A DNA stretch of 64,000 nt from a virus. The stretch is from IMG/VR virus record IMGVR_UViG_3300042888_001330, positions 1 through 64,000 of that record. One strand, given 5' to 3'. Shown piece by piece: positions 43 through 52,455 of this stretch. Made by a program: the position numbers and the translations under genes. Every line of letters begins with the position of its first letter. Within the stretch, counting starts at the first letter, position 1. Under the pieces are notes generated by a model. It made no database searches. It saw only the letters and a list, made by a program, of their open reading frames with translations, and was not told the origin of the DNA.

Positions 43-837
43 TTATATTCCGTAGAAAGGGCGAAAAAAGTCAACCCCAAACCCAATTCTAAATTGGATC
101 TCTTCTCCTGATGGGGTATTTGCTGTTTGTGTTAGGTCAATTCCTGGCTTATTGTCAGATACGTATTTTCTAAAATCTTGTGAATCTTTAATCGGCATAT
201 TCTCAATGAAATTTCTTGTGTTCATTGGGTCATTAACTCCAGCCACGGATTTAATCATACCTTCGAGTTGTTTTGTAATAATTGGAGCTATTCCATTACC
301 ATTCCAACTCTTTGCAATTTCTTTTATGTCGTTTTCTTGTTTTTGGGTTAAAAACTTAAATGTTACGTCTACTTTGGATTTATTCATAAAATATGAATAT
401 TCTCCGTTAGAATCTGCAACTAATGTAAATGGTTTAAAATCTAAACTACTTAAATCTATTTGAACCTCAAAATCTTCGTTTGTTTTTGGGTCGGTTAATG
501 TAACTTTATATTCTGAACCAAATGCGGTATTTCTTAAAAATATTAAAATAGCCTCCTTATCTTCTTCAACCAAATCTTCGGTTGATAAGTCTTTGTCTAA
601 TACTTTTCTTTTTAATAGTTCATTAACTATAGCATTTGTCTGTATTAAATTTGGGGATGCTAATATATTTTCATCCGCGGCAGTTAGGTAAGCTATTCTT
701 AGTGATTTCTTACCATTTTGATAATGGATACCTCTACTTGGTAACTCCACAACATCATATGCGATTCTTGGGTCAATTCTTAATTCTTCCATAGTACAAT
801 TTAATCTATAACTATCGTAAAGTAAAGTTTTAAACAT
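43..837 (-). CDS. T4 gp26-type baseplate hub protein
   Basis: About 264 aa. Residues 20-130 carry the pattern of the T4 baseplate hub family: VVELPSRGIHYQ, then AADENILASP, a long helix, and a segment ending in RNTAFGSEYKV. It probably belongs to the baseplate hub. It is the last gene of a minus-strand tail run after sheath and tube. An upstream ATG at 855 would add six residues, but it lies inside the terminator hairpin at 838-872, so the Met at 837 is the better start; a further Met (MEELR) lies downstream. The family call is from memory of gp26-like proteins and could equally be a gp51-like assembly factor. Confidence 0.6.
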   Translation of the reverse strand: MFKTLLYDSYRLNCTMEELRIDPRIAYDVVELPSRGIHYQNGKKSLRIAYLTAADENILASPNLIQTNAIVNELLKRKVLDKDLSTEDLVEEDKEAILIFLRNTAFGSEYKVTLTDPKTNEDFEVQIDLSSLDFKPFTLVADSNGEYSYFMNKSKVDVTFKFLTQKQENDIKEIAKSWNGNGIAPIITKQLEGMIKSVAGVNDPMNTRNFIENMPIKDSQDFRKYVSDNKPGIDLTQTANTPSGEEIQFRIGFGVDFFRPFYGI

Positions 838-872
838 AAAAAAACCGATACCCATTTCTGGTATATCGGTTT
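838..872 (-). terminator. Rho-independent terminator after tail tube gene
   Basis: AAACCGATA (842-850) pairs with TATCGGTTT (864-872). On the minus strand the hairpin is followed by a run of seven T (844-838). It lies between the tube stop and the hub gene and overlaps the first apparent codons of the hub ORF, which argues against that upstream start. Confidence 0.8.
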
Positions 873-893
873 AATATATGAAAAAGTATAATA

Positions 894-1382
894 TTAGAAT
901 ACAAGTATACATCTATCCATACGTAAAGTACATTGGATAGTTGCAATTTCATCTCTTGAATAGTCTAATTCACCAAAGTTGATGTCTTGAATAAATGTTC
1001 CTTGAAGAATCCATTTTTCAACAACAACTCCCGTTGGGTCTAACATTTCAAGTTCGATGTCTTTTTTATAACCGGCAGCATATCCCATACGACCAGTAAC
1101 TGATTCAGCGTGTAAACGGAACCACTCCATTAACGCTTGTGACGCTGATGGACCAATCGGGTCTTTAAATGTTACCCTCATAGTATCCCAACTAAATTTA
1201 CCCGCAACATATGTTGAAGTATTTAAAAAAGGAATTTCAGTCGCGTTGATTTTTGCGGATGGTCTAGCCGCTGATGTTACATACCATTCATTGATACCCA
1301 AAGAAGATGGGAATCTTACAATAAATCGGTTCTGTCTTTTCGGTTCGTAAGGAACCGGCATTTTCATTAGTAAATCTGCCAT
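894..1382 (-). CDS. Tail tube protein (T4 gp19-like)
   Basis: 162 aa, the usual length for T4 gp19 (about 163 aa). The N-terminus (YEPKRQNRFIVRFPSSLGINEWYV) and the C-terminus (ILQGTFIQDINFGELDYS followed by IATIQCTLRMDRC) fit the tube-subunit fold. It polymerises into the inner tail tube through which DNA passes. It has its own promoter region (a late box at 1420-1427, 37 nt before the ATG) and its own terminator, so it is transcribed apart from the sheath, consistent with the high copy number needed. Confidence 0.9.
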   Translation of the reverse strand: MADLLMKMPVPYEPKRQNRFIVRFPSSLGINEWYVTSAARPSAKINATEIPFLNTSTYVAGKFSWDTMRVTFKDPIGPSASQALMEWFRLHAESVTGRMGYAAGYKKDIELEMLDPTGVVVEKWILQGTFIQDINFGELDYSRDEIATIQCTLRMDRCILVF

Positions 1383-1419
1383 GTTGTATTTGTTAAGTTT
1401 TTTTGTTATTTTATACTCT

Positions 1420-1427
1420 TATAAATA
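1420..1427 (-). promoter_or_regulatory. Late promoter box, tail tube
   Basis: TATTTATA on the minus strand, 37 nt before the tube ATG, exactly the same spacing as for the sheath gene. Assigned by recurrence of the word before structural genes. Confidence 0.6.
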
Positions 1428-1524
1428 TATGTTAATTAGAAATAAATTTATTTTTAGGATCGATCTTGATTTTGTGGATTTTTTTTCGTAGTTTTTTACA
1501 AATCCTCCAGTATTCTAGACCCAG

Positions 1525-1532
1525 TATAAATA
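1525..1532 (-). promoter_or_regulatory. Second late box upstream of tube
   Basis: TATTTATA on the minus strand, overlapping one arm of the 1520/1601 inverted repeat. Possible extra late promoter or symmetric operator. Confidence 0.4.
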
Positions 1533-1563
1533 ATTAATAAATTTCTAGTTTAATAATATAACA

Positions 1564-1571
1564 TATAAATA
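1564..1571 (-). promoter_or_regulatory. Third late box upstream of tube
   Basis: TATTTATA on the minus strand, inside the loop of the long inverted repeat and abutting the ACTAG/CTAGT palindrome. Confidence 0.4.
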
Positions 1572-1652
1572 CTAGTATAACTAGTTCCAGATTATACTGG
1601 GTAAAATAAAATGATATAATTTTAATAATAATTGGTTCCATGTGGAGCATTA

Positions 1653-1682
1653 AAAAAGGGAAGCTTTTCGGCCTCCCTTTTT
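1653..1682 (-). terminator. Rho-independent terminator after sheath gene
   Basis: AAAAAGGGAAGC (1653-1664) and GCCTCCCTTTTT (1671-1682) form a 12-bp stem with one wobble and a 6-nt loop. The minus-strand transcript ends in T6 just after the sheath stop at 1705. Confidence 0.85.
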
Positions 1683-1704
1683 ATTTTTATATCCTCCTTT
1701 TAGA

Positions 1705-4563
1705 TTAGATATTCTCGAATGAAGCTCCTGTTGGAGTAATTACGAATTCCAAATCAATAAATTCAAGAGAACGAGTAGGTTTAACGTAAATTTTACCTCT
1801 CAAAGTGTTAGCGTCGATGTCTTCAACATCACTTGAAACACTTACTTTAAATTCATAAAGACCTCTTTCTTTCTTAATTGATTCTAAAATTGGGTTTACC
1901 AATCTTAAGAACTCTTGTCTTACTTGTTCGTCGTTTTGTTCGAACAACAATCTAACAGCAACTGCTGAAATTAACTTTCTTGCTCTTAACAACAATCTTC
2001 TTACGTTGATTCTATCAAGTGCAGATTCTCTAACTTGTAACGTTTTGTTACCCCAAATAATTGTACCAGTATCAGAGAACGTTGCGATTGGATTAATTCT
2101 ATTTTTGTAAAGTTCGTCTCTTTCATCAAGAGTTAACTTCTTTTTAGCTTTAATTGCATTTACCAAACCTCTTGAATAACCCGCAACTGCGAACCAAGGA
2201 TAAGATACGTTATCAGTTAACGCGATGTTCTTCAACACCTCACCTGTTGGTGGAATGTAAAGTTGAGTTGCGTTATCTGTATCTCTTACTTGAATCCAAG
2301 GCCAATATGTTGCAGAATAGTTAGAGTCAATTCCTAAATCGTCAAGGTAACCTGTAACGGTTGCCGCATCATCAACATTTGGTGATGATATGATATAAAG
2401 TGAATCGGCTCTTTCATTCTCGATAATATCTATTGCTTGACTTGTTAAAGATGAATGATCGTAGAAGTTAATACCTGCAGTAGCGAATACGTTAATATCA
2501 ATTGCCTCAGGATTTGAGTAAGTTTGAATACCTTCTAAATAAGCATAATAATCAGAGTTTCCTATGGTTGTATTGAACACACCACCATTATCGGTATTAG
2601 CTGTATTATATGTTGTTTTACCATAAATAAATTGGTCACCAAGAGTTCTTGTCTCTCTGTATATATCCCAACCATCAAATCCACCACAAACCGCTAATGT
2701 AAATTTACGGAAGTTTATGTTGGTTAATTTATTGTCGGTACCAGATTGACCTTCTAAATCATAAGGTGTTGTTTGGTATGTTGTTCCTGTTATTGATGAT
2801 GCGTTTGTTGATAAGTGGAAACCGAATGTACTTGAAGACGCCGCATTTCCTTTATATTTAAACAAGTCACTATCAAATTTAAAACCATTTTGAGATGATA
2901 AACCTAAAGAGACTTTCTTTACTTTATCTCCGTTAGATAATACTTGAGAACCATCCGATTCGTAGTAAACCACGTCACCACCATCAAAAAATTCTGTTTT
3001 GTAAAGAACACTACCTAATTTGTTACTTGAAACAAGTAAGGATGTAAATCCTTTGAATCCAGCAGGGAAAGCGTCCGTAGGTGCATTATCGGCCATATTT
3101 AACATGATAAACTTTGAACGTAATTCATATTCACCATCAGAGGTACCAACTTTTCTTGCCACATAACCTGGAAGGTCAGTATTCATTGAACATCTTGTAA
3201 ATTTCTCTAATATAATTTGATTTTCATCAGTATCGTTAAAATCACGAACCATAATATCAAATTCGGCAGTATCTAAATTAATATTTTGAATTGTAACCTT
3301 AACTTCAATATTTGCTGCGTCTCCATCAGATATTGTTAATATTGAGAATAAATCTGCAACATTACCACCACGAACTTCAGAAACAACTGTAGGTGATGAT
3401 GGAGTATCCCATGATTGTGCAAAATTATCACTTTCAACGTTTGATGATACATCTAAACTTAAACCTCTTACGTATCCATTTCTAAATGCTGATAATAATA
3501 AGTTAGAATATATTTCATTAACATATAATGGATAATCTTCTTTTACTTTATCAAAAACTTCAGTACCTAATACTTTATTTATATATTTTGTTGATGAAAT
3601 ATCTAATGAACAATTGAATGTTTTAATTCCTCCCGTAATACCTGTAACATTTAAAGCAAATTCTGCCATTGGGTTAGTTGTAACACCACCAACATCGGTT
3701 AATGTTACTGCTGTTGTTCCTGTTACTTGTAATACTAAACTTTGTGAAGCGTTATATTCACCTCTTGATCTTAAAGAAGCAACAATTACATCACTATAAT
3801 CTGTGTTAAGTGATGCGCTGTATTTAAATCTTGTTACATCAAATGAAGATGTACTTGTAGAATAAACAAAAAGATAAGAGTAAACACCATCAATTGTTGA
3901 GTCGGCTGACCCTGTTTTAGTAAAGAACGCATTATACCAATTTTTATTAGCATTTTCACCGATTGGTGATAAAAGTTTTGTACCTGTTAAACTTGAGGTA
4001 TCTGAAGTTGGTACATTACCAATAACAAACCAATCGTTATTTGCATACGCCGCACCACTCTTACCTGTTTTACTTGTTATGTATGTTGTTACAGATGAAC
4101 CATTGGTTGCCGTTTTACCTGAAAGTTCACCATAAATTGTTGAACCTGTAATAGTTGCGGTTGTTGCTGATAATGTTATTCCTGTTGTTGATGTAGGTGT
4201 AGACACTAAATCCACTGTTACACCACCTAAAGTTTTAATACTATAAGTTTTTCCTGGTTTATATCCTGTTTTACCAAGTATTCTTGTTACGAATAGTTGA
4301 TTAGACTCTTGTAAGTATGATTTAGCCATATAAGCTAACTCATATTTAGGGTTATTTGCACCGTCTTTCTCAGGTGAAGTTGGTCCGAAATACGTTTTGA
4401 ATTCGTCGAAGTCCCCAACTAAAATAGGTTCGAAAGCAGGACCTTTTAAAGCCTCACCTACTAAACCTAAAGTTGTAACCCCGACACTTTGTGCTACGAA
4501 TGTTAGATCCTTCTCAGATGTGTACACACCCGGAGAAACGAATACTCTGTTTGAATTTGCCAT
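1705..4563 (-). CDS. Contractile tail sheath protein (T4 gp18-like), enlarged
   Basis: 952 aa against 659 in T4. The N-terminal 100 residues (VFVSPGVYTSEKDL, LVGEALKGPAFEPILVGDF) and the C-terminal 250 (IYIPPTGEVLKNIALTDN, FAVAGYSRGLVNAIKAKKKL, IATFSDTGTIIWGNKTLQ) are the conserved sheath parts that form the contractile mesh. The extra length lies in the Ser/Thr- and Gly-rich middle (about residues 110-620), which probably forms surface domains on the outside of the tail. Own late box at 4601-4608 and own terminator. Confidence 0.93.
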   Translation of the reverse strand: MANSNRVFVSPGVYTSEKDLTFVAQSVGVTTLGLVGEALKGPAFEPILVGDFDEFKTYFGPTSPEKDGANNPKYELAYMAKSYLQESNQLFVTRILGKTGYKPGKTYSIKTLGGVTVDLVSTPTSTTGITLSATTATITGSTIYGELSGKTATNGSSVTTYITSKTGKSGAAYANNDWFVIGNVPTSDTSSLTGTKLLSPIGENANKNWYNAFFTKTGSADSTIDGVYSYLFVYSTSTSSFDVTRFKYSASLNTDYSDVIVASLRSRGEYNASQSLVLQVTGTTAVTLTDVGGVTTNPMAEFALNVTGITGGIKTFNCSLDISSTKYINKVLGTEVFDKVKEDYPLYVNEIYSNLLLSAFRNGYVRGLSLDVSSNVESDNFAQSWDTPSSPTVVSEVRGGNVADLFSILTISDGDAANIEVKVTIQNINLDTAEFDIMVRDFNDTDENQIILEKFTRCSMNTDLPGYVARKVGTSDGEYELRSKFIMLNMADNAPTDAFPAGFKGFTSLLVSSNKLGSVLYKTEFFDGGDVVYYESDGSQVLSNGDKVKKVSLGLSSQNGFKFDSDLFKYKGNAASSSTFGFHLSTNASSITGTTYQTTPYDLEGQSGTDNKLTNINFRKFTLAVCGGFDGWDIYRETRTLGDQFIYGKTTYNTANTDNGGVFNTTIGNSDYYAYLEGIQTYSNPEAIDINVFATAGINFYDHSSLTSQAIDIIENERADSLYIISSPNVDDAATVTGYLDDLGIDSNYSATYWPWIQVRDTDNATQLYIPPTGEVLKNIALTDNVSYPWFAVAGYSRGLVNAIKAKKKLTLDERDELYKNRINPIATFSDTGTIIWGNKTLQVRESALDRINVRRLLLRARKLISAVAVRLLFEQNDEQVRQEFLRLVNPILESIKKERGLYEFKVSVSSDVEDIDANTLRGKIYVKPTRSLEFIDLEFVITPTGASFENI

Positions 4564-4600
4564 CGATTGTTGTTTGGTTAATTATTTTTATTAGTTATTC

Positions 4601-4608
4601 TATAAATA
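4601..4608 (-). promoter_or_regulatory. Late promoter box, sheath
   Basis: TATTTATA on the minus strand, 37 nt before the sheath ATG; the leader between is A-rich and unstructured. Confidence 0.6.
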
Positions 4609-4633
4609 TCTTTGTTTTTACCAAAGATTTCCG

Positions 4634-4641
4634 TACTTTTG
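4634..4641 (+). promoter_or_regulatory. Host-type promoter for small RHH-like gene
   Basis: TACTTTTG fits the Bacteroidota -7 box TAnnTTTG, with a TTG 19 nt upstream in the -33 position. It drives the 52-codon gene at 4691. Confidence 0.5.
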
Positions 4642-4690
4642 TTTAAAAAGATAGTAAATTATCCTTTTCTATCTTAAATTATCTTTCATC

Positions 4691-4849
4691 ATGGAAAACA
4701 AACAGAAAAACGTAAAAATTAGTGAAAAACACCACGAGATGTTAAAAAACCATTGTGAAAAGAACGGATTAAAAATTTATAAGGTTTTAGAAAAATATAT
4801 TGACGAAGTTTGTAAACCAAAAAAGAAGGACATCTATGGTGACGATTAA
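4691..4849 (+). CDS. Small ribbon-helix-helix-like protein
   Basis: A 52-aa ORF beginning MENKQKNVKISEKHHEML. A short strand (VKIS) followed by two helices (HHEMLKNHCEKNG, KIYKVLEKYIDEVC) has the order seen in Arc/CopG-type DNA-binding proteins, with a Lys-rich tail. It lies alone on the plus strand between two minus-strand tail genes, overlaps the 3' end of the gp15-like gene by 4 bp, and has a host-type promoter box 50 nt upstream. It could be an early regulator; the fold call is by eye. Confidence 0.6.
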   Translation: MENKQKNVKISEKHHEMLKNHCEKNGLKIYKVLEKYIDEVCKPKKKDIYGDD

Positions 4850-6081
4850 TATAGGTAAGTCACACCAATTCTAGAACCAACAACGGGTGTACCTAATAAA
4901 ACAATATCTTGTGAACCTGAAACATCAAATCCAGAACCTTCCTCTTCTTGTAGACCATTTATATCTAAACTGACAATACTACTAATATTGTTATATGTGT
5001 GAAAAGTTAATGTACTACCATCATATTGGAAATACTCCGTAGTAACTTGTATTAATTTACCATAATTATCTATAATAACATTGTTTCTACCCTTATAGTA
5101 CGAAATAACTATAGTACTACCTTCAAAAGGTGGTTGTACAAATGATATTTTAGATGTATATGAAATGTGGAAAAAATCGGCGTTTTTCTCTTGTAATAGA
5201 CCATTAATTGTAACACTAAACAATGTACCAATACTTTCACCAACACTAAATTGAGTTTGCATCCCGTCTCCAGTAAATGACATCACGGTTATATCAATAA
5301 CCTTACTAACGTATTTTTTCCTACCTACACCCTCTTTTGCAAATTCATTCATTAAAAAGAAACGATTAATTGCGGGTTTTACCTCAAATTCATCAGAATC
5401 AATAAGGAAACCTAACATAGTAAATGTGTAGTTTTGAATGTAAAATCTCCTACCCTCCAACGTATCCATGGGAGTGTTATCTTCAATTTTATCTAATATA
5501 AGTGGAATGTAATGTCCCTTAACTTGAGTATAATCTTGTCTTGATGAAAAATTTTGTAATACTATTTTACTAAATTTATTAACATCTCTAAATTTATTAC
5601 AAACAATCGTAACGTCATATGTTATATCAACAGGTACGGGTTGTGGTATTTTATATATATCCGCACCCATAGTGGTTCCGTTCCAAGTCGGTACGGAGGA
5701 GTAGTAAAATTGATGTCTATCGGGTATTGTTCTCTGAACCGATGGATTTGTTCCCGGTTGAACGTCGGGTTTTCTTACAATTGCAACAAATGGTAATTCA
5801 ATATTTCCGTCGTCGTTTGTAAATGTCCACGTTTGTGTAAATTCACCCCACCTTTGAACTGTTAATATTTTATCAATAATTGGTATCTTATTACCATCGG
5901 ACACAATTTGAAAATTTTTAGTTACGTAATCTAAAAATCCTTTATCTAAATCATCATGTAATATAGAGTCGGGAAGATATGTGTCAGATTTAGTAATTTT
6001 ATCTAACAATTCTTGTCTTCTTTCAGTCAGTTCTTTTTCTGTGTAAACAGATATATTGTTTTTTCTTTTAGGTATTCCCAT
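4846..6081 (-). CDS. Tail terminator / sheath stabiliser (T4 gp15-like) with extra C-terminal domain
   Basis: 411 aa. The first ~250 residues follow the T4 gp15 plan: N-terminal helix, IIDKILTVQRWGEFTQTW, then PVDITYDVTIVCNKFRDVNKFSKIV with a following FYIQNYTFTMLGFLID. That fold caps the tail and joins it to the neck. T4 gp15 has 272 aa; here residues ~265-411 add two similar beta-rich units (IDITVMSFTGDGMQTQFSV, then VTTEYFQYDGSTLTFHTY, each followed by an INGL(L/Q)EE segment). Its place directly after the gp14-like gene and before the sheath supports the call. Confidence 0.65.
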   Translation of the reverse strand: MGIPKRKNNISVYTEKELTERRQELLDKITKSDTYLPDSILHDDLDKGFLDYVTKNFQIVSDGNKIPIIDKILTVQRWGEFTQTWTFTNDDGNIELPFVAIVRKPDVQPGTNPSVQRTIPDRHQFYYSSVPTWNGTTMGADIYKIPQPVPVDITYDVTIVCNKFRDVNKFSKIVLQNFSSRQDYTQVKGHYIPLILDKIEDNTPMDTLEGRRFYIQNYTFTMLGFLIDSDEFEVKPAINRFFLMNEFAKEGVGRKKYVSKVIDITVMSFTGDGMQTQFSVGESIGTLFSVTINGLLQEKNADFFHISYTSKISFVQPPFEGSTIVISYYKGRNNVIIDNYGKLIQVTTEYFQYDGSTLTFHTYNNISSIVSLDINGLQEEEGSGFDVSGSQDIVLLGTPVVGSRIGVTYLY

Positions 6082-6082
6082 T

Positions 6083-6595
6083 TTATACTCCTCTAAATTG
6101 ACTATCTTGTACTGGTGAACAAGTTATTGATTTATAATATGGTTTAAATCCAAACATATTATGTTTATTGTCCGAAGTTATTTTACCATCATTTACCACT
6201 TGATAAAATCTAACTTTTAATTCAGATTCGGGATAACCAATATAATCACCATATCTTATATCTATTTTCATTTCTTCTAAATGTTTAATATAAACAGATA
6301 AAATCATATTTCCCGGCTCAAGGTGCCTCAAAGTCCCATTTTTATATGAACTATTTTTTGGTTCCTCAATTTTAACCAATGCATTAAATTCAACAGGTGG
6401 AAAGAATTTTGTTTGGTCTATACCAACCTCAACATACACGTCATCAATTTGAGTCTTTTCTCTATCTACCCTATATAGAACTAATTTCATATTTAAATCC
6501 CCGTGAAGATATTCTTGACCCATTTGAATATTGAGGTCAAAATCATCTTGAGATAAGAATTTAGATAATCTGGTAATAGGTAACTTATTTTCCAT
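6083..6595 (-). CDS. Neck protein (T4 gp14-like)
   Basis: 170 aa. LVLYRVDREKTQIDDVYVEV resembles the gp14 opening, in which a Tyr-x-Arg segment precedes a short acidic stretch. Residues ~95-160 (IDIRYGDYIGYPESELKV, FKPYYKSITCSPV) match the later strands that read 'GDyI ... y.V.d'. gp14 joins head to tail. One nucleotide separates it from the gp15-like gene. A late box ends 5 nt before its ATG. Confidence 0.5.
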   Translation of the reverse strand: MENKLPITRLSKFLSQDDFDLNIQMGQEYLHGDLNMKLVLYRVDREKTQIDDVYVEVGIDQTKFFPPVEFNALVKIEEPKNSSYKNGTLRHLEPGNMILSVYIKHLEEMKIDIRYGDYIGYPESELKVRFYQVVNDGKITSDNKHNMFGFKPYYKSITCSPVQDSQFRGV

Positions 6596-6600
6596 ATCCT

Positions 6601-6608
6601 AATAAATA
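6601..6608 (-). promoter_or_regulatory. Late promoter box, gp14-gp15
   Basis: TATTTATT on the minus strand with only 5 nt to the ATG, implying an essentially leaderless transcript. Confidence 0.6.
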
Positions 6609-6632
6609 GTTTAATGTTACATTCTATTTACT

Positions 6633-6640
6633 TATATTTT
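6633..6640 (+). promoter_or_regulatory. Early-type promoter box, helicase
   Basis: TATATTTT ends 3 nt before the ATG at 6644. It is divergent from the late box of gp14, so the two promoter classes face away from each other in 50 bp. Confidence 0.5.
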
Positions 6641-6643
6641 AAT

Positions 6644-8395
6644 ATGGAAACTAAGATTCCCGAAATAGAGGCAAGAAACATTTTATTAACCTACGAAGGT
6701 TCAAACAACCAATTATTAGATTGGAAGAGAAAATTTGTTGAGGTAAAAAACTTCAAACTAACCCGTCCACAGGCGGAATATGTTCAAAAGTATTATAATG
6801 TGTCCCCAAAGGTAGCAAGAAAATATATTAACATCGTTAATTCTTTTGGTGAAAAGATAATGGAAGAAAGGTTATTACCTAAACCTCCTGAAAAAATATG
6901 GTGTGAAAAATTATTATGTGATTCTGAAAAAGCGTTTCATATATGGGGTAAAGTATTAGATAATGACCAATTATCTGCAATGTGGTTACCGAAAGCCGCA
7001 GTGATGCAAGAAGAGAAAAAACTTAATCGAATTATTGATTATAGTAATTACGATACAAGACCTCCCATGGAACACCAGAAGGTTGCCATTGAGAAGTTAT
7101 TAGCAAACGATAAGTTTATACTTGCCGATGATATGGGTCTTGGTAAAACGACCTCAGCGGTTATTGCATCTATGGAAAGCGGAGCTAAGAAAGTTCTTAT
7201 TGTTTGCCCCGCATCTTTAAAGATAAATTGGGATAGAGAAATTAAAAACTATTCTAACAGAAAAGTGTTAATTGTTGAGGGTCGTAAATGGGGTTCTACA
7301 TTTGACTATTATATTATAAACTATGATATTATTAAAAATTACCACTCAACAGATAAGTCTGAAGATAGTGACGACTATAAATTATTGGTTAATGCCGGTT
7401 TTGATTTGGCAATCGTAGATGAGGCACATTATATTTCAAATGCAACGGCAAATAGAACTCGTTTATTAAATGATGTACTTGAACAAATCCCAAAAGTTTG
7501 GTTACTAACGGGTACACCAATGACATCAAGACCTATTAACTATTTTAACTTATTAAAAATTGTTGAATCCCCATTGACATTAAATTGGCAATCTTATGTT
7601 CGTAGATATTGTAAAGGATATCAATTCAACGTTGGTAATCGTAAAGTGTGGAATACAAGTGGTGCAAGTAATTTAGATGAGTTAAGAGAAAGAACTAAGA
7701 ATATAGTACTTCGTAGAATGAAAACCGACATTCTTGATTTACCCGAAAAAATTGTTACTCCTGTTTTTGTTGAGTTAACAAGTAAAATGTACGATGAGGA
7801 ATTAGAAGAATTCACACGTATTAGTAATGATAAGAAAGATGATGAAACAATCACCGTTACATTAAATCGTTTAATGAGGATTAGACAACTTATTGCATAT
7901 GAAAAAATTCCTTACACTTGTGAATTAATTGATAAGTGTTTAGAACAAGGAAAGAAAGTAATTGTATTCACTAATTTTACAATGTCATTAGATATGTTAC
8001 ATGAGAAATATAAAAAGAACTCCGTAACTCTTGATGGTCGTATGAATAAAGATAAACGACAAGAAAATGTTGATAGATTTCAAAATGAAGATAAAATAAA
8101 AGTATTCATTGGTAACATTAAAGCGGCTGGAGTTGGTATTACGTTAACAGCTGCTGAGGTTGTTATTATGAACGACTTATCATTTGTACCGGCCGACCAT
8201 TCACAAGGTGAAGACCGAGCATATAGATATGGACAAAAAAATAGTGTTCTTGTTTATTACCCCGTATTTGAGAACACCGTTGAAAAAATCATCTATAATA
8301 TTCTACAAAGGAAAAAAGGAGTAATTGACCAAGTTATGGGTGATGGTGAATATTCAGAATCTTTTAGTAAAGACTTACTTAAACAACTCCTTTAA
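6644..8395 (+). CDS. SNF2-family DNA helicase
   Basis: 583 aa from the Met at 6644. Superfamily 2 motifs are clear: I DDMGLGKTT, Ia VLIVCPASL, II VDEAHYI, III LLTGTPMTS, IV VIVFTNF, V AAGVGITLTAAE, VI SQGEDRAYRYGQ. The arrangement is that of SMARCAL1/Rad54-like ATPases, which remodel or anneal forks; in T4-like phages the related role is filled by UvsW. The ATG at 6614 is rejected because the extra ten residues cover the promoter box. Likely role: replication fork processing and recombination. Confidence 0.9.
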   Translation: METKIPEIEARNILLTYEGSNNQLLDWKRKFVEVKNFKLTRPQAEYVQKYYNVSPKVARKYINIVNSFGEKIMEERLLPKPPEKIWCEKLLCDSEKAFHIWGKVLDNDQLSAMWLPKAAVMQEEKKLNRIIDYSNYDTRPPMEHQKVAIEKLLANDKFILADDMGLGKTTSAVIASMESGAKKVLIVCPASLKINWDREIKNYSNRKVLIVEGRKWGSTFDYYIINYDIIKNYHSTDKSEDSDDYKLLVNAGFDLAIVDEAHYISNATANRTRLLNDVLEQIPKVWLLTGTPMTSRPINYFNLLKIVESPLTLNWQSYVRRYCKGYQFNVGNRKVWNTSGASNLDELRERTKNIVLRRMKTDILDLPEKIVTPVFVELTSKMYDEELEEFTRISNDKKDDETITVTLNRLMRIRQLIAYEKIPYTCELIDKCLEQGKKVIVFTNFTMSLDMLHEKYKKNSVTLDGRMNKDKRQENVDRFQNEDKIKVFIGNIKAAGVGITLTAAEVVIMNDLSFVPADHSQGEDRAYRYGQKNSVLVYYPVFENTVEKIIYNILQRKKGVIDQVMGDGEYSESFSKDLLKQLL

Positions 8396-8581
8396 CTCCT
8401 CAATTTTTGAGGTTAGTAAATCGTTAAGTTCTTTATCTTCCACATTCGGAAGGTTAACCACAATTTTTTTTTCGGGTTCTACCGAATAATCGATATAATT
8501 TTTATCACCTTCTTTTTGGTATGTGAATATGAAATCATTAATACCACAAATTCTAAATAGTTCGTTTAATTTATCGTTCAT
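8375..8581 (-). CDS. Small hypothetical protein, acidic
   Basis: 68 aa, overlapping the helicase 3' end by 21 bp on the opposite strand. The sequence alternates beta (FIFTYQKEGDKNYIDYSV) with a C-terminal acidic helix (ELNDLLTSKIEELKELFK). TATATTTA lies 4 nt before its ATG, the same spacing as in other early-type genes, which is the main reason to accept it. No family recognised. Confidence 0.55.
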   Translation of the reverse strand: MNDKLNELFRICGINDFIFTYQKEGDKNYIDYSVEPEKKIVVNLPNVEDKELNDLLTSKIEELKELFK

Positions 8582-8585
8582 AACT

Positions 8586-8593
8586 TAAATATA
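8586..8593 (-). promoter_or_regulatory. Early-type promoter box, small gene
   Basis: TATATTTA on the minus strand, 4 nt before the ATG at 8581; it lies 3 bp from the divergent gp13 late box. Confidence 0.4.
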
Positions 8594-8596
8594 AAC

Positions 8597-8604
8597 TATT
8601 TATA
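8597..8604 (+). promoter_or_regulatory. Late promoter box, gp13
   Basis: TATTTATA, 15 nt before the gp13 ATG. Confidence 0.6.
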
Positions 8605-8619
8605 AGAATAAAACAAAAT

Positions 8620-9729
8620 ATGGCGACTATTATTTCACAACCCGAAAAGGACAAATTATATACTCAGGTATTTCACCTATTAGGTATGCCTGTTCGTGGT
8701 ATTGAGCTTACTGAAGAACAAATGGACACGTTCCTTGAACTTTCATTATCAGAATATGAACAATATGTATCTGATTGGTTAATAGAATCTCAATGGTCGG
8801 CATTGGCTGGATTAGACGTAGATACACAATCTTTAACTAACGCCTTTACAACTCGAAGTTTAGATTACGAAACTCAATATAGTCACTCATATTCTAAAAT
8901 TGTGGGTTTACAGGCAGGTGGTGATAGTGAACTTAAGAAAGATTTCATAACATTAACAGGTGGAACACAAATGTACGAAGTACCTGCTGGACGTGAAATA
9001 AATGAACTATTATGGTTTACAAGATCAGAAATGACGGATACAATTGTTGACCCGTTTGCTGCTGGATTTGGTGGATTAGGTGGTGTCGGGTTTGGTGGTT
9101 TTGCACAAATGGGTGCGTCAGGTGGTTCATATTTTATGATGCCGGCGTTTGATTTATTATTAAGAATGCAAGATAGAAGTCTTAAAAATAGATTAATTGG
9201 TGGTGACTTAACATACAGAATAACTGCAGGTCCTGATGGAAAAAAATATATTCATCTTTATAATGTACCTGGCGGTAGATTTGACTTTGGTGCAGTTTAT
9301 AAAAATAACTATCAAGTTTGGTATTGGTACTATGATACCATGGATAGAGACACTTGTTTAGATAAAAACAAAGACGTTATTAAGTTACCTTCAGACGTTA
9401 TGACTGAAGAATTAACGTGGGATAAATTAAATAAACCTTCTCAGAATTGGATTAGAAAATATCTAATCGGTTATTCTAAAGAAGGTTTAGGTAGAATTTG
9501 GAGTAAATTTTCTGGAGACTTACAAGTTCCAGATAGTTCGGTTAAATTAGATTATAGTTCTTTACTTACCGAAGGTAAAGATGAAAGATTAAAGTTGGTT
9601 GAAGAATTAATGGCTCGATTAGAAAGACTCCGTCCCGATAAAATTCTTGAGAGAAAAGGTGCTGAGGCTGAAAATTTAAATAAAGCACTTAAGTTCAGAC
9701 CAATGCAGTCTCCATACAATATCATTTAA
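8620..9729 (+). CDS. Neck protein (T4 gp13-like)
   Basis: 369 aa. The N-terminus (LYTQVFHLLGMPVRGIELTEEQMDTFLELSLSEYEQYVSDW) is the hallmark of T4-like neck gp13: a Leu-Gly-x-Pro turn followed by a deQ helix pair. It forms the head-completion ring on the portal. A Gly-rich loop (FAAGFGGLGGVGFGGFAQMG) near residue 150 looks like an inserted flexible arm. It converges with the DNA polymerase gene, with the two stops overlapping by 4 bp. Confidence 0.75.
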   Translation: MATIISQPEKDKLYTQVFHLLGMPVRGIELTEEQMDTFLELSLSEYEQYVSDWLIESQWSALAGLDVDTQSLTNAFTTRSLDYETQYSHSYSKIVGLQAGGDSELKKDFITLTGGTQMYEVPAGREINELLWFTRSEMTDTIVDPFAAGFGGLGGVGFGGFAQMGASGGSYFMMPAFDLLLRMQDRSLKNRLIGGDLTYRITAGPDGKKYIHLYNVPGGRFDFGAVYKNNYQVWYWYYDTMDRDTCLDKNKDVIKLPSDVMTEELTWDKLNKPSQNWIRKYLIGYSKEGLGRIWSKFSGDLQVPDSSVKLDYSSLLTEGKDERLKLVEELMARLERLRPDKILERKGAEAENLNKALKFRPMQSPYNII

Positions 9730-45799: not shown

Positions 45800-46573
45800 T
45801 TATTGTGTTATGGACAATTTTTTGTTTGAAATGTCCGTTTTTAGTTTTAAAAGTTTCTCTATATATCCGTTTCTTCGAAGTAATTTGAAGGTTAAGTTCT
45901 CATATGAGTACTCTCCTCCTGATTCAAGACCACTTTGTCTAAACTCTTTAATTTTACTTCTTAGTGTTTCAATATCTGAAGTTACGTCTTTTTTACTACC
46001 TAATTTAATAAGTCTATCTATTTTTTTTGCGTACTCTTCACCCTTTTCTAATATTTTTCTATCGTCAATATTAGCCTGTTCCTTTTTAGGTTCAATAACC
46101 CATTCGTTATTTAAAATAGAATAAACACCAGATGAAATGTGTTCCTCATTAACATCTTGTACGTATATTTCAACATCATACCCCTTTATTTTGATGTCGT
46201 ATTTTTCGTTCCATACGTTTTTCTTAGCATCAAAAAATTCTTTCAATATTGCATGAAAAGACGATGAGTTTTTATCTTTATTGATACTATCAAAATCTAT
46301 AAGAATGTGTAAATCAACGTCAGAATATTGTGACCAATTATAGTTAGAAAGTGACCCCGTTAATACGATATCATGTATAAACACATCAACATTCAAAGAG
46401 TCCACGAAATCATTTGTTATTACTAGTAATCTTTTTCTTATATCGTCTCGCATAGAAAAAGATTTACCACTAACCTCAAATATTTGGTCAGATAGTGAAT
46501 CTTTAGGTTTAAAAGAACCTACGATTTTTTCGTCCTCACCCCTATCTTCAATTAATTCTTCAAATAAACTCAT
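45800..46573 (-). CDS. Nucleotidyltransferase-fold protein
   Basis: 257 aa. VLTGSLSNYNWSQYSDVDLHIL is the GSx10DxD motif of the polymerase-beta-like nucleotidyltransferase fold, and GYDVEIYVQD supplies the third acidic residue. The C-terminal 90 residues are helical. It could transfer a nucleotide to RNA, protein or an antibiotic-like substrate; nothing shows which. Such genes are frequent in T4-like phages of aquatic bacteria. Overlaps the KTSC gene by 4 bp. Confidence 0.72.
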   Translation of the reverse strand: MSLFEELIEDRGEDEKIVGSFKPKDSLSDQIFEVSGKSFSMRDDIRKRLLVITNDFVDSLNVDVFIHDIVLTGSLSNYNWSQYSDVDLHILIDFDSINKDKNSSSFHAILKEFFDAKKNVWNEKYDIKIKGYDVEIYVQDVNEEHISSGVYSILNNEWVIEPKKEQANIDDRKILEKGEEYAKKIDRLIKLGSKKDVTSDIETLRSKIKEFRQSGLESGGEYSYENLTFKLLRRNGYIEKLLKLKTDISNKKLSITQ

Positions 46574-47375: not shown

Positions 47376-47401
47376 TATTTGTTTTTTAGAATGAAATGTG
47401 T

Positions 47402-47409
47402 TATGTTTG
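47402..47409 (+). promoter_or_regulatory. Host-type promoter, clp
   Basis: TATGTTTG with TTG at 47379-47381 (20-nt spacing), 23 nt before the ATG at 47433. Confidence 0.5.
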
Positions 47410-47432
47410 TAGAAACTAAACGTAAAAATAGT

Positions 47433-49451
47433 ATGGCAGTAGATTTTTTTGAAGACGGACCAACGACAAACCCTAAAAGGGGACGTAAAGGTTCAACCAC
47501 CCCAATCTTAGATAATTTTTCTCGCGATTTAATTAAACTCGCGGAAGAAGGAAAGATTGACCCTGTAGTGGGAAGGGATAAAGAAGTGAGAAGAATCGCA
47601 CAAATTCTTTCTCGTAAAAAGAAAAATAATGCAGTTGTTGTTGGAGAGGCTGGTGTTGGTAAATCAGCATTAGTTGAAAAACTCGCATTAATGATTGTAA
47701 AAGGAGATTGTCCCACAAATCTACTTGACAAAAGAATTGTCTCTTTAGATTTAACCTCTTTAGTTGCGGGAACAAAATATCGAGGACAATTTGAAGAGAG
47801 GATTAAAGCAATCTTAAATGAATTACAAGAGGCACACAATGTTATTGTATTCATCGATGAGTTACACACAATGGTAGGTGCAGGAAATGCCAGTGGAGCA
47901 ATGGATGCGGCTAATATTATGAAACCCGCATTAGCTAGAGGAGAGATTCAATGTATCGGTGCAACCACATTCGATGAATTTAAGAAACACATTGAAAAAG
48001 ATTCTGCTTTAGTTAGAAGATTTCAAAAAGTAATTTTAAAAGAACCAACTCAATCGGAAACCATTGAAATTTTAAATAACCTCAAAACTTCATATGAAGA
48101 TTTCCATAAAGTACAATATGAGGATGGTGTGATTGACACGATTGTTAAATTATCGGGTCGTTATATTACTGATAGACAATTTCCCGATAAGGCTATTGAT
48201 GTTATTGACGAGTTAGGATCTGAAAAAAGGATTTCATTACGTGCTCCCGATACAATTGAAAAATTAAAAGGTCAAGCTGATGAGATTAAAGAAAAAAAGA
48301 TTCTTGTTGTTAAAAATCAGAATTACGAACAAGCGGCAAAACTTAGAGATGAAGAAAGAAAAATTTTAGATAAACTTGAGGTTGAGAAGTCCAAGTGGAT
48401 GGAAAAACAAAAGGATAATAAAATTCCTGTTTCTATTGATGATGTTTATACTATTGTATCTGAAATGACGGGTGTACCAATCACTAAATTAGATTCTAAC
48501 GAAACTAAAAAGTTATTAAAGATGGAAACCCTATTATCAGAAAAGGTTATTGGTCAAGATGAAGCAATATTAAGCATCTCAAAAGCAATTAGACGTAATC
48601 GTGTGGGAATTAAAGATGCCAACAAACCAATCGGTTCATTTATTTTCTTAGGTTCCACAGGTGTCGGTAAAACACATTTAGCTAAGTCCCTTGCGAATTT
48701 ATTATTTGGTGATCCCGATAAAATCATTCGTGTTGATATGAGTGAATTTATGGATAGACACAATGTATCCAAATTAATCGGTTCTCCTCCGGGTTATGTT
48801 GGTTATGATGAAGGAGGTCAATTAACTGAAAAGGTTAAGAATAATCCTTTCTCCGTTATCTTATTTGATGAAATTGAAAAGGCACATAAAGATATCTTCA
48901 ATTTATTATTACAAATTTTAGATGAAGGTCATTTAACCGATTCATTTGGTAGAAAAGTTAATTTTACTAATTGTTTGATTATCATGACATCTAATATCGG
49001 TGCTAAAAAAGTATCTGAGTTTGGTGGTGGTGTTGGTTTCAGTACTTCATCAAGTGAAACACAAAAATATGAAGTGAAGAAAACTATGATTCAAAAATCA
49101 TTGAAGCAACAATTTAATCCCGAATTTTTAAATCGTATTGATGATATTGTCTTGTTTAACTCGTTAAATGAAGAATCACTAAAGAAAATTATTGATATTG
49201 AAATTGGTAAGTTAAATTCCCGTTTAGTAGATAAAAATTACATTGTTACGTTTGATAAAACTGTTATCGATAAAATTTTTGAATTAAACACTCAAGAAGA
49301 ATACGGAGCGAGACCTTTGAAACGTATCATTCAAAATTTATGTGAAGATTTCTTAAGTGAGGAAATCTTAAAGGGTAATATTATTGAGAATTTACCGATT
49401 ATTTTAAAATATAAAAACGAAAAATTAACAATTGTGAAAAAAATGTTATAA
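47433..49451 (+). CDS. ClpC/ClpA-type AAA+ unfoldase lacking the N-domain
   Basis: 672 aa from the Met at 47433 (bacterial ClpC has ~810-850). Two AAA+ modules: NBD1 with GEAGVGKSAL and VFIDELHTMVGAG, NBD2 with GSTGVGKTHLA and VILFDEIEKAH. A UVR-like coiled middle region (NYEQAAKLRDEERKILDKLE) lies between them. The Clp N-terminal repeat domain (~150 aa) is absent, replaced by 20 polar residues. GGGVGFSTSSS in NBD2 matches the position of the ClpP-binding (I/L/V)GF loop. Starts at 47379 are rejected because they cover the promoter. Confidence 0.9.
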   Translation: MAVDFFEDGPTTNPKRGRKGSTTPILDNFSRDLIKLAEEGKIDPVVGRDKEVRRIAQILSRKKKNNAVVVGEAGVGKSALVEKLALMIVKGDCPTNLLDKRIVSLDLTSLVAGTKYRGQFEERIKAILNELQEAHNVIVFIDELHTMVGAGNASGAMDAANIMKPALARGEIQCIGATTFDEFKKHIEKDSALVRRFQKVILKEPTQSETIEILNNLKTSYEDFHKVQYEDGVIDTIVKLSGRYITDRQFPDKAIDVIDELGSEKRISLRAPDTIEKLKGQADEIKEKKILVVKNQNYEQAAKLRDEERKILDKLEVEKSKWMEKQKDNKIPVSIDDVYTIVSEMTGVPITKLDSNETKKLLKMETLLSEKVIGQDEAILSISKAIRRNRVGIKDANKPIGSFIFLGSTGVGKTHLAKSLANLLFGDPDKIIRVDMSEFMDRHNVSKLIGSPPGYVGYDEGGQLTEKVKNNPFSVILFDEIEKAHKDIFNLLLQILDEGHLTDSFGRKVNFTNCLIIMTSNIGAKKVSEFGGGVGFSTSSSETQKYEVKKTMIQKSLKQQFNPEFLNRIDDIVLFNSLNEESLKKIIDIEIGKLNSRLVDKNYIVTFDKTVIDKIFELNTQEEYGARPLKRIIQNLCEDFLSEEILKGNIIENLPIILKYKNEKLTIVKKML

Positions 49452-49876: not shown

Positions 49877-50305
49877 ATGGATACAAATACAGAAAAACAA
49901 GGTGATTTAATACTTCTTAGAGGTGTTCCGGGTTCGGGTAAAACAACATTCGCTAATGTTATATTACAACAACCAAATAACAACCCACAAGAAATATTGT
50001 CTGCGGATGATTTTTTTGAGGGTGAAAATGGTGAATATAATTTTGACCCAACAAAATTAAAAGAAGCTCACAACTATTGTCAATTTAGGTGTTCCGAAAG
50101 AATGAGACAACAAAAGGTGAGAATTGTGGTTGCAAATACATTTACACAAGAATGGGAAATGGATGAATATTTTAAAATGGCCGAAAGGTACAATTATAGA
50201 GTTCATACAATAATTGTAGAGAATAGACATGGTAATGAAAATATTCACGGAGTTCCAAAAGATAAACTTCAACAAATGAAGAATAGGTTTGAAATTAAAT
50301 TATAG
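49877..50305 (+). CDS. P-loop kinase (polynucleotide kinase-like, N4BP2 type)
   Basis: 142 aa. DLILLRGVPGSGKTTFANVI is Walker A; ILSADDFFEGENGEYNFD and VANTFTQEWEMDEYF follow the N4BP2/PNK kinase pattern, with the substrate-lid Arg region (RCSERMRQQ) between. The family phosphorylates 5'-OH ends of RNA or DNA. It stands directly before an RNA ligase and a cyclic-phosphate-processing receiver domain, which points to RNA 5' end healing. Confidence 0.78.
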   Translation: MDTNTEKQGDLILLRGVPGSGKTTFANVILQQPNNNPQEILSADDFFEGENGEYNFDPTKLKEAHNYCQFRCSERMRQQKVRIVVANTFTQEWEMDEYFKMAERYNYRVHTIIVENRHGNENIHGVPKDKLQQMKNRFEIKL

Positions 50306-50372
50306 ATGAGTCAATTTATTGAATCTTTTACTAAGTCAATAAACCCACCACAAAAAACACCAATCAAAAATT

Positions 50373-51578
50373 GTGCTAACTACATTAGAAAAATATTACG
50401 AAAATGGTTTGTTACACAAACAAACCCACCCAAATCTTGACTTAACTATTTGGAATTATTCCCCAAAAGTTCAGTACGAAAGATTATGGGATGAGATTAC
50501 TTTGCAATGTCGTGGATTGGTAACCAACTCAAAAGGTGATATTGTTGCAAGACCATTTAAGAAATTTTTTAACTACGAGGAACATAAACCAGAAGATATC
50601 CCTAATGAAGATTATGTTGTCTATGAAAAAATGGATGGTTCGTTAGGTATTCTCTTTTATTACAAATATGAATTAAGTGAAGAGAGAAGATATAATATAT
50701 GGTTTAATAACAATTATGAAACAGGTATGGAAAGGTTCTTTGACCCTAACAATTTACCTGATTACGATAATCCATATTATGACCCAACACCAAAAACAAA
50801 AGGTGAATGGATATTAGCAACTCGAGGTTCGTTTACATCACCACAAGCAATTAAAGGAAAAGAAATACTTGACAGACACGATATTAGTGCGTGGAGAAAA
50901 GACAACACATATTTGTTTGAGATTATTTATCCTGAAAATAGAATTGTGGTTGATTATAAAGGAGAAGAAAAATTAGTTGTCCTTGGAGCTATTCATACTG
51001 AAACTGGTGAAGAAATACCCGATAGTAGTTTGTTTTGGACACAGGACTCGGGTTTTGAAGTTGTGATGACATATAAAACTTGGGGTGAAACATACGACTT
51101 ATTAAAAGAAGAAATATCTAAAGATAAAGAAGGTTACGTAATAAAATTCAAGAATGGTTTCCGAATGAAAATAAAAGGAGATGAATATGTTAGACTTCAC
51201 AAAATTCTAACTAACATATCTAATCGTGACATATGGGAATATCTAAAAGATAATAAACCATTTGATGAGTTACTTGAAAAGGTTCCAGATGAATTTAATG
51301 ATTGGGTTAAAACCACAATCAGAGATTTAAAATACGCATGTTATCAATTAAGAGAACGAGCGGGTAAATTACATGATGGTTTTAGATATGGGAAATTTGG
51401 TGACAGAGACCCTGAACCATCTAAAAAAGAATTTGCTGAATTTGTAAATAAACAACAAAAAGTTTTACATGCAATTATGTTCGCAATGTGGAATGGAAAT
51501 AATCAAAAAGTTGACGACATAATTTGGAAAATAGTTAAACCGGAATATTCAAAACCATTTAAGAAAGATGAAAACTGA
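50373..51578 (+). CDS. RNA ligase (T4 Rnl1-like)
   Basis: 401 aa from a GTG start at 50373; an in-frame stop at 50340 rules out a longer form. Motif I VYEKMDGSLG holds the adenylated Lys (about residue 87). Motif III is YLFEIIYPENRIV, IV is KEGYVIKF, V is FRMKIKGDEYVRLHK. The upstream LTIWNYSPKVQYERLWDE and CRGLVTNSKGDIVARPF blocks are conserved in Rnl1 relatives. It joins 5'-phosphate and 3'-OH RNA ends, as T4 Rnl1 does when repairing tRNA. It overlaps the next gene by 11 bp. Confidence 0.9.
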   Translation: MLTTLEKYYENGLLHKQTHPNLDLTIWNYSPKVQYERLWDEITLQCRGLVTNSKGDIVARPFKKFFNYEEHKPEDIPNEDYVVYEKMDGSLGILFYYKYELSEERRYNIWFNNNYETGMERFFDPNNLPDYDNPYYDPTPKTKGEWILATRGSFTSPQAIKGKEILDRHDISAWRKDNTYLFEIIYPENRIVVDYKGEEKLVVLGAIHTETGEEIPDSSLFWTQDSGFEVVMTYKTWGETYDLLKEEISKDKEGYVIKFKNGFRMKIKGDEYVRLHKILTNISNRDIWEYLKDNKPFDELLEKVPDEFNDWVKTTIRDLKYACYQLRERAGKLHDGFRYGKFGDRDPEPSKKEFAEFVNKQQKVLHAIMFAMWNGNNQKVDDIIWKIVKPEYSKPFKKDEN

Positions 51579-52053
51579 GAAAAAAAGATTATACTTAGAC
51601 GATGTTAGAACACCAATTGGAACTGATTGGGTTATTGTAAGAAATTATGAACATTTTGTTTCTACCATTAGGCTATATGGATTAGAAAATTTTGATGTTA
51701 TTTCGTTAGACCATGATTTAGGTGATGAGTCTATGGTTGAATACTATACAAATGTAAAAAATAATTATGTGTTAAATTATGACAATATAGTTGGTGAGAA
51801 AACGGGATATGATTGTTGTAAGTTTTTAGTGGCGGAAAGTATGAGTAAAAAAATACCTTTACCCCAAATTTATGTTCACTCCGCTAATCCAATTGGTAGT
51901 GCTAATATGATGGGTTATATTAATAATTATTTAATGAATTGTAGTTTACCTCAAACCTGTATTAGAGTTAAAATTGAACACACAATTGATACACCAATGG
52001 TACTCTCTCCCGAAGCTAGAAAAGCAAAATGGGATAGAAGTAACAAAAAATAA
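51568..52053 (+). CDS. Receiver-like domain for cyclic-phosphate processing (cpRec)
   Basis: 161 aa. RLYLDDVRTPIGTDWVIVRN, FDVISLDHDLGDE and GYDCCKFLVAESM, with IYVHSANPIGSANM, follow a receiver-like domain with a DD pair and a conserved DHDLG. This type has been predicted by comparative genomics to process 2',3'-cyclic phosphates in RNA-repair operons. The gene order here (kinase, ligase, this gene) fits: 5' end, 3' end and sealing would all be covered. Confidence 0.75.
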   Translation: MKTEKKRLYLDDVRTPIGTDWVIVRNYEHFVSTIRLYGLENFDVISLDHDLGDESMVEYYTNVKNNYVLNYDNIVGEKTGYDCCKFLVAESMSKKIPLPQIYVHSANPIGSANMMGYINNYLMNCSLPQTCIRVKIEHTIDTPMVLSPEARKAKWDRSNKK

Positions 52054-52104: not shown

Positions 52105-52455
52105 ATGTCATACACATCAAAAACAAAAACACCCTACAAAACAATGCACATTAAAGGTAAGTATACCGATTTTAATGACTTTTATGACATTAATAAGCAA
52201 TCGATATATGAAAACATTGTCGAGGTCTTTAAAGGGTTTAAAGAAACCAAAAAACGTGTTCTGTCCCTATATGTTCAGGCTATCATTCAAGGTTTAGAAT
52301 GGGACACAGAATTTAAGTTTAATAGAAACGAAACAATCGTATTATCTAGAGATGTTATTCCTTTTTTTGAGAGCATCGAAGATTACGAAAAATGTGCTGA
52401 AATAAAAAATTTATACGAAGACTTGACTAATGAAAAAATATTAGTTACAATTTAA
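52105..52455 (+). CDS. Hypothetical protein
   Basis: 116 aa. Basic N-terminus (SYTSKTKTPYKTMHIKGKYT), then a helical core (IYENIVEVFKGFKETKKRVLSL) and an acidic C-terminal helix (FFESIEDYEKCAEIKNLYEDL). It follows the RNA-repair genes but has its own promoter box and terminator, so it is likely a separate unit. No family recognised. Confidence 0.6.
   Translation: MSYTSKTKTPYKTMHIKGKYTDFNDFYDINKQSIYENIVEVFKGFKETKKRVLSLYVQAIIQGLEWDTEFKFNRNETIVLSRDVIPFFESIEDYEKCAEIKNLYEDLTNEKILVTI

Follow-up and report, generated by a model that had tools for sequence, protein, structure and literature searches.

Three genes packed tightly on one strand (+) of the window, by which we mean the whole stretch of 64,000 nucleotides analysed here, encode a small polynucleotide kinase-like protein, a T4 Rnl1-type RNA ligase and a cREC protein, short for cyclic-phosphate-processing receiver (Table 1). 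The three open reading frames were confirmed and their profile matches lie far above chance, which bears out the positions and families proposed in an earlier, sequence-only reading of this DNA. The window comes from a record (G000) of 78,728 bases of an uncultured virus. Since records with the same genes as this cassette reach 217, 251 and 336 kb, the record probably represents part of a jumbo phage genome, and since the nearest cultured cREC found (59% identity) belongs to Flavobacterium phage immuto_3-5A, we infer that the host is probably a member of the Bacteroidota.

Table 1. Features of the cassette, its surroundings and the downstream part of the same record (G000; coordinates in locus L093 in brackets)
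Feature	Position	Strand	Basis and remarks
Nucleotidyltransferase-like protein	45800-46573	opposite	phrog_36119; NTP_transf_2 just under cut-off; conserved near the cassette in relatives
ClpA/ClpB-type AAA+ unfoldase	47379..49451	+	phrog_4871 2.2e-242; ClpB/ClpA models; conserved upstream neighbour
5'-OH polynucleotide kinase-like protein, 142 aa	49877..50305	+	P-loop GxPGSGKT; no phosphatase domain
Small-ORF remnant	50306..50440	+	starts with the ATG at 50306, in a frame other than that of the ligase, whose start it overlaps
T4 Rnl1-type RNA ligase, 401 aa	about 50373..51578	+	GTG start at 50373; PF09511, phrog_562
cREC protein, 161 aa, predicted phosphoesterase	51568..52053	+	PF20274 3.1e-22
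116-aa protein, function not assigned by family	52105..52455	+	Synteny; no Pfam match above cut-off
tRNA island	64531-68948 (531-4948)		ARAGORN predicts 12 genes, Rfam 14; ~12 to 17 kb downstream of the cassette
GOLLD RNA	70005-70409 (6005-6409)		316 bits; directly upstream of the MPPED-type gene; G016 (L134) alike
MPPED2-like metallophosphoesterase, 250 aa	70545-71297 (6545-7297)		MPPED2 3rl4; outside the window, 18.5 kb downstream of the cassette
tmRNA, then directly SmpB gene	72398-73306 (8398-9306)		ARAGORN tag ATSNVEVA; SmpB PF01668 2.1e-53

The order Clp-type unfoldase, kinase, ligase, cREC and 116-aa protein was kept in most of the 80 related phage loci, the last of these usually being the next gene whether cREC is present or absent. 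Insertions were observed at the joints of the cassette, namely a GIY-YIG-like gene (L020 and L028) and an oxygenase-like gene (L055), both named by eye, as well as a calcineurin-like phosphoesterase placed between kinase and ligase in L053. A short ATG-led reading frame, which the earlier reading had overlooked, starts immediately after the end of the kinase gene. It is whole (~80 aa) in many relatives (loci compared: L007 (5756-5998), L011, L013, L017, L019 and L034), where it occupies the 0.2-kb gap between kinase and ligase, and just its first part is left in the window; the full-length product gave no Pfam or PHROG match. Because the ATG of cREC overlaps the stop codon of the ligase (51576-51578), these two genes are probably translationally coupled.

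The kinase matches AAA_33 (6.9e-16), phrog_2071 (2.8e-41) and the PNK family phrog_505 (1.6e-9), the kinase part of the NCBIfam model bacter_Pnkp (2.9e-5) and, weakly, the kinase of C. thermocellum Pnkp in the PDB (4gp7, 0.0018). It has the P-loop and the later conserved Asp that mark Pnkp-type polynucleotide 5'-kinases, and G16, G19, G21, K22 and D44 are invariant among 60 relatives. Unlike T4 Pnkp, it carries no fused HAD phosphatase domain: its 142 residues form a single P-loop domain, as the sequence-only reading had recognised.

The ligase matches RNA_lig_T4_1 (PF09511; 4.4e-17) and the Rnl1 family phrog_562 (5e-70), and its nearest solved structure is T4 Rnl1 (2c5u, 4.6e-11). The nucleotidyltransferase motif set (KxDG, FE, EGYV, KxK) is intact, with the nucleotidyl-transfer lysine K86 in KMDGS followed by FEIIYPENRIV, EGYVIKF and MKIKGDEY; K86, D88, G89, S90 and the later motifs are invariant among 60 relatives. 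The C-terminal domain beyond the nucleotidyltransferase core is also present (best stretch with phrog_562: residues 137-398 against profile positions 114-370 of 377). We use the term Rnl1-type, and not RnlA equivalog, because the score against TIGR02308 (the T4 RnlA equivalog) falls below the curated cut-off (72.5 versus 242.25 bits; E 3.4e-20). Judged by their families and intact motifs, kinase and ligase make a credible RNA-repair pair, in agreement with the earlier reading, and it is very probable that the two repair RNA.

The third protein scores 79.5 bits against cREC_REC (PF20274), for which the gathering cut-off is 27. Its AlphaFold2 model (pLDDT 89.8) was compared with known structures by VIA-align, and all 50 matches listed were receiver domains (best Z 10.4, rmsd 3.0 over 101 residues); Foldseek gave no match to the model at E < 0.001 and searching PDB sequences with the cREC profile produced no meaningful hit, so that the receiver fold rests on VIA-align. 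As modelled, cREC has a receiver-like fold which keeps the acid pocket. By our own mapping from strand ends, D11 and D12 would be the two acidic residues, D48 the phosphoacceptor Asp and S105 the Ser/Thr position. Across 70 sequences D11, D12 and D48 are conserved, S105 is kept, and R14, D50, H104 and N107 are invariant, the invariance at some of these stretches being partly a result of selection, as the loci were fetched with patterns including DD-x-R and LDHDLG. The cREC proteins of phages Mydo and magaca, which were reached by way of the kinase, retain D-D, D-x-D, H and N, with Asn replacing H49. No conserved Lys was seen at the end of strand 5, where receivers have one, with about 30 of the 70 rows gapped there, partly from rows cut at match ends.

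The near-invariance of the acid pocket suggests catalysis, and we hypothesise that the D-x-D located where strand 3 ends resembles the nucleophile and acid/base pair of HAD phosphatases. The site was called metal-independent in PMC9503650, but given the retained acid pocket a metal-dependent site seems at least as likely. The domain was named in PMC7824862, where processing of 2',3'-cyclic ends or of cADPr was predicted and a linkage to RNA ligases reported; the idea that cREC is a 2',3'-cyclic-phosphate enzyme acting beside RNA ligases was put forward in 2021-22. PMC9503650 describes it as experimentally uncharacterised, and our literature search found no enzyme assay of cREC, the cREC papers found after 2021 being genomic surveys (PMC7824862, PMC9503650).

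Judged by Pfam matches in records that are fragments, cREC is present in 33 of 50 related records and absent from the other 17, which retain kinase and ligase; the 251-kb record G017 is one example. In the tree of the Clp-type unfoldase, which served as lineage tree, one change, fully supported locally, accounts for where cREC occurs, and the ligase tree forces at least 7 changes (both trees were built quickly, from 66 and 58 rows). The most economical interpretation is an exchange of ligase genes between a cREC-bearing lineage and a cREC-free sister lineage; the ligases would accordingly not depend on cREC, whose presence would be a lineage trait crossed by the ligase gene. This distribution, together with the MPPED2-type enzyme of the same record, speaks against the earlier claim that cREC alone fills the gap left by the missing phosphatase.

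The MPPED2-like gene is unlinked to the cassette in our record. Its product matches MPPED2 (3rl4) at 6.2e-54 over residues 2-241, and the alignment shows the metal-site motifs DTH, GD, GNHD and GHIH. Characterised MPPED enzymes favour 2',3'-cAMP, yield 2'- and 3'-AMP and leave monoesters uncut (PMC10547211). If this holds for the phage protein, there is an enzyme dedicated to opening the ring, and removal of the phosphate still calls for a monoesterase. The MPPED2-type phosphodiesterase is the better candidate, compared with cREC, for opening 2',3'-cyclic phosphates, and cREC, where present, would be the natural candidate for the missing monoesterase. MPPED was confirmed in cREC-bearing (G000, G001, G006 and G010) as well as cREC-free records (G008, G009, G014, G015 and G017), and G016 has MPPED too; a role as the cREC substitute was therefore rejected. 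Among 27 viral cREC loci without a linked ligase, 8, which lack a linked kinase too, have an MPPED gene touching or overlapping cREC, and a further 3 have one no more than 1 kb away; in L226 a 281-aa protein (4148-4990) with no Pfam or PHROG match stands between the two genes. The MPPED2-like protein also matches the PADLOC phage-defence candidate PDC-S10 (4.5e-72), and its bacterial relatives may for this reason be defence genes.

Other candidates for the missing healer were tried and rejected, mainly in 18 related records, the absences being provisional since these records are fragments. A 2H phosphoesterase (PF13563) was matched in none of the 18, which also hold no full two-domain T4-type Pnkp, just phosphatase-less kinases and one HAD-like match. 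The latter, a single case, concerns the cREC-free record G030, where a HAD-like gene weakly matching the PNKP phosphatase domain lies ~0.5 kb from the MPPED gene. A Swiss-army-knife HAD phosphatase (HAD_SAK_2) occurs in three of the 18, all of them with cREC, and G000 is not among them. In the cREC-free record G017 (L117:7194-8105) a cyclic phosphodiesterase domain of the fungal tRNA ligase type (PF08302) is fused to a HAD_SAK_1-like phosphatase (just under the cut-off); as a general replacement of cREC this fusion was discarded, as it was found in no other of 37 records and has a relative in the cREC-bearing locus L218.

A kinase-ligase-cREC grouping is already known from other phages, and here it occurs without a sirtuin. 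The V5/Mydo cluster has been described as a T4-like ligase, cREC, a nucleotide kinase and occasional calcineurin-like phosphoesterases (PMC9503650). This Vequintavirinae-type neighbourhood (Proteus phage Mydo, Escherichia phages V5 and magaca) likewise holds the small phosphatase-less kinase close to ligase and cREC, but its gene order is different and it includes a sirtuin (SIR2). Mydo has ligase, cREC, kinase, small ORF and SIR2 in succession; in magaca, ligase, cREC and two SIR2 genes run on the strand opposite to that of the adjoining kinase. SIR2 was found in none of 16 records of our lineage including G000, which are fragmentary with cassette and flanks complete. The cREC-RNA ligase linkages of jumbo phages (PMC7824862) share with our cassette the domain and the predicted clearing of cyclic 2',3' ends for ATP-grasp ligases; that survey covered 224 known jumbo phages, whereas our lineage is uncultured and encodes an MPPED2-type partner away from the cassette. 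In Pakpunavirus JG004 and Vibrio phage Brizo, too, an Rnl1-type ligase adjoins the same small kinase and a metallophosphoesterase is close by, but no cREC is annotated in the stretches compared.

Kinase and ligase were found within the flank in 50 of 79 viral cREC loci, mostly near relatives of the query and counted regardless of kinship. Kinase and cREC are adjacent in L202 and L231, and in records G067 and G069 a small kinase and an Rnl2-type ligase lie within ~5 to 7 kb of MPPED and cREC, all four genes falling inside ~5.2 kb in G067. cREC thus recurs with kinases of this kind across unrelated phages, where the genes may be ordered differently and the nearby ligase may belong to a second family, Rnl2; neither Rnl1 nor Rnl2 was found in several large phage records that bear cREC. 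With the T4 pair Pnkp and Rnl1 our cassette shares a kinase and an Rnl1-type ligase for 5' phosphorylation and sealing. The division of labour distinct from the two-domain T4 Pnkp, to which the earlier reading drew attention, is real as a split, but it is not peculiar to this phage: a separation of kinase and phosphatase is widespread, being seen in Mydo, Vequintavirus, Pakpunavirus and Demerecviridae.

We propose, at a probability of about 0.5 for the scheme as a whole, that the cassette is a phage RNA-repair operon which reverses host cuts in tRNA or other structured RNA. Genes, families, intact motifs, linkage and conservation are properties of the sequence itself; built on them, the catalytic steps, their substrates and the end they serve, presumably evasion of an anticodon nuclease or a comparable defence, would be as follows. 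The 142-aa kinase would phosphorylate the 5'-OH, cREC and the MPPED2-type metallophosphoesterase would jointly restore the 3' end to OH, and the Rnl1-type ligase would seal the break. That cREC acts on the RNA 3' end we consider an even bet. The split that we favour, with low confidence, is one in which the MPPED2-type diesterase opens the 2',3'-cyclic phosphate and cREC, as a receiver-fold enzyme with an Asp nucleophile and a HAD-like Asp-x-Asp motif, afterwards removes the remaining monophosphate, but the roles may be reversed or shared.

Several observations count against the scheme, namely the 17 records that lack cREC, the repeated changes on the ligase tree, the bacterial cREC loci, the large cREC-bearing records with neither ligase family, the distance of the MPPED gene from the cassette and the receiver lysine, for which no conserved counterpart was seen. 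The authors who named cREC offered cADPr as an alternative substrate (PMC7824862), and cREC might not be an RNA-end enzyme but destroy a host immune signal (cyclic ADP-ribose, a cyclic nucleotide or an ADP-ribose phosphate), adjoining the repair genes as a fellow counter-defence. Bacterial cREC fits this reading: among the genes beside it on the same strand are SIR2 in four cases and Macro and ADP-ribosylglycohydrolase in one case each, and none of the 79 checkable loci (of 80) has such a kinase or an Rnl1-type ligase within 6 kb. The persistence of kinase and ligase where cREC is absent fits it as well. Against it stand the lack of SIR2 in the 16 relatives and the recurrence of cREC beside the kinase and ligases of two families in unrelated phages, and we regard destruction of a signal as possible, though doubtful.

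Distinctly less probable, in our view, is that the MPPED2-type enzyme heals the 3' end, alone or with another phage or host phosphatase, and that cREC is a non-enzymatic or regulatory partner. MPPED is confirmed on both sides of the cREC divide, and JG004, Brizo and L053 have a metallophosphoesterase in the vicinity of kinase and ligase. Moreover, the kinase domain of bacterial (Clostridium-type) Pnkp is among the closest characterised relatives of our kinase, and it is natively joined to a metallophosphatase domain and a ligase domain; in our cassette, by comparison, the proteins are separate, the ligase is of the Rnl1 type and cREC is added. However, characterised MPPED enzymes leave a 2'- or 3'-monophosphate, for which a monoesterase is still needed, and the nearly invariant acid pocket of cREC points to catalysis. 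The last alternative places the ligase in another process, e.g. attachment of tail fibres, which is the second role of T4 gp63, so that the three genes would not form one pathway. The family phrog_562 does bear a tail-fibre attachment name, but no tail genes were recognised beside the ligase, and it is closely linked to a kinase in almost every relative and also in several groups of unrelated phages, which makes this explanation very improbable.

Should healing of the 3' end by two proteins, as in our preferred scheme, prove true, cREC would represent a novel type of RNA 3'-phosphatase that arose from a signalling domain, and the MPPED genes of phages would gain a purpose. cREC is widespread in phages with an activity that is predicted, and the lineage described here offers small proteins with a named partner, MPPED, as well as a natural set of otherwise similar genomes with and without cREC. 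Were such an activity confirmed, what is now a guess from genomes would become a known enzyme, with the receiver fold reused on RNA ends.

The same record also carries translation genes. There are no tRNA genes within the 64-kb window itself; the tRNA island, the tmRNA and SmpB all lie downstream, in the remainder of the record (64001-78728; Table 1). A tmRNA with the tag ATSTVAVA was found in G016 and none in G017, and tmRNA with SmpB is known from huge phages (PMC7162821). The set of tRNAs, tmRNA and SmpB is consistent with a phage that is attacked at translation, and its presence in the same record lends support to the view, fairly inferred in the earlier reading, that the host cuts tRNA or rRNA. 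Phages of this lineage seem to protect translation on several fronts simultaneously.
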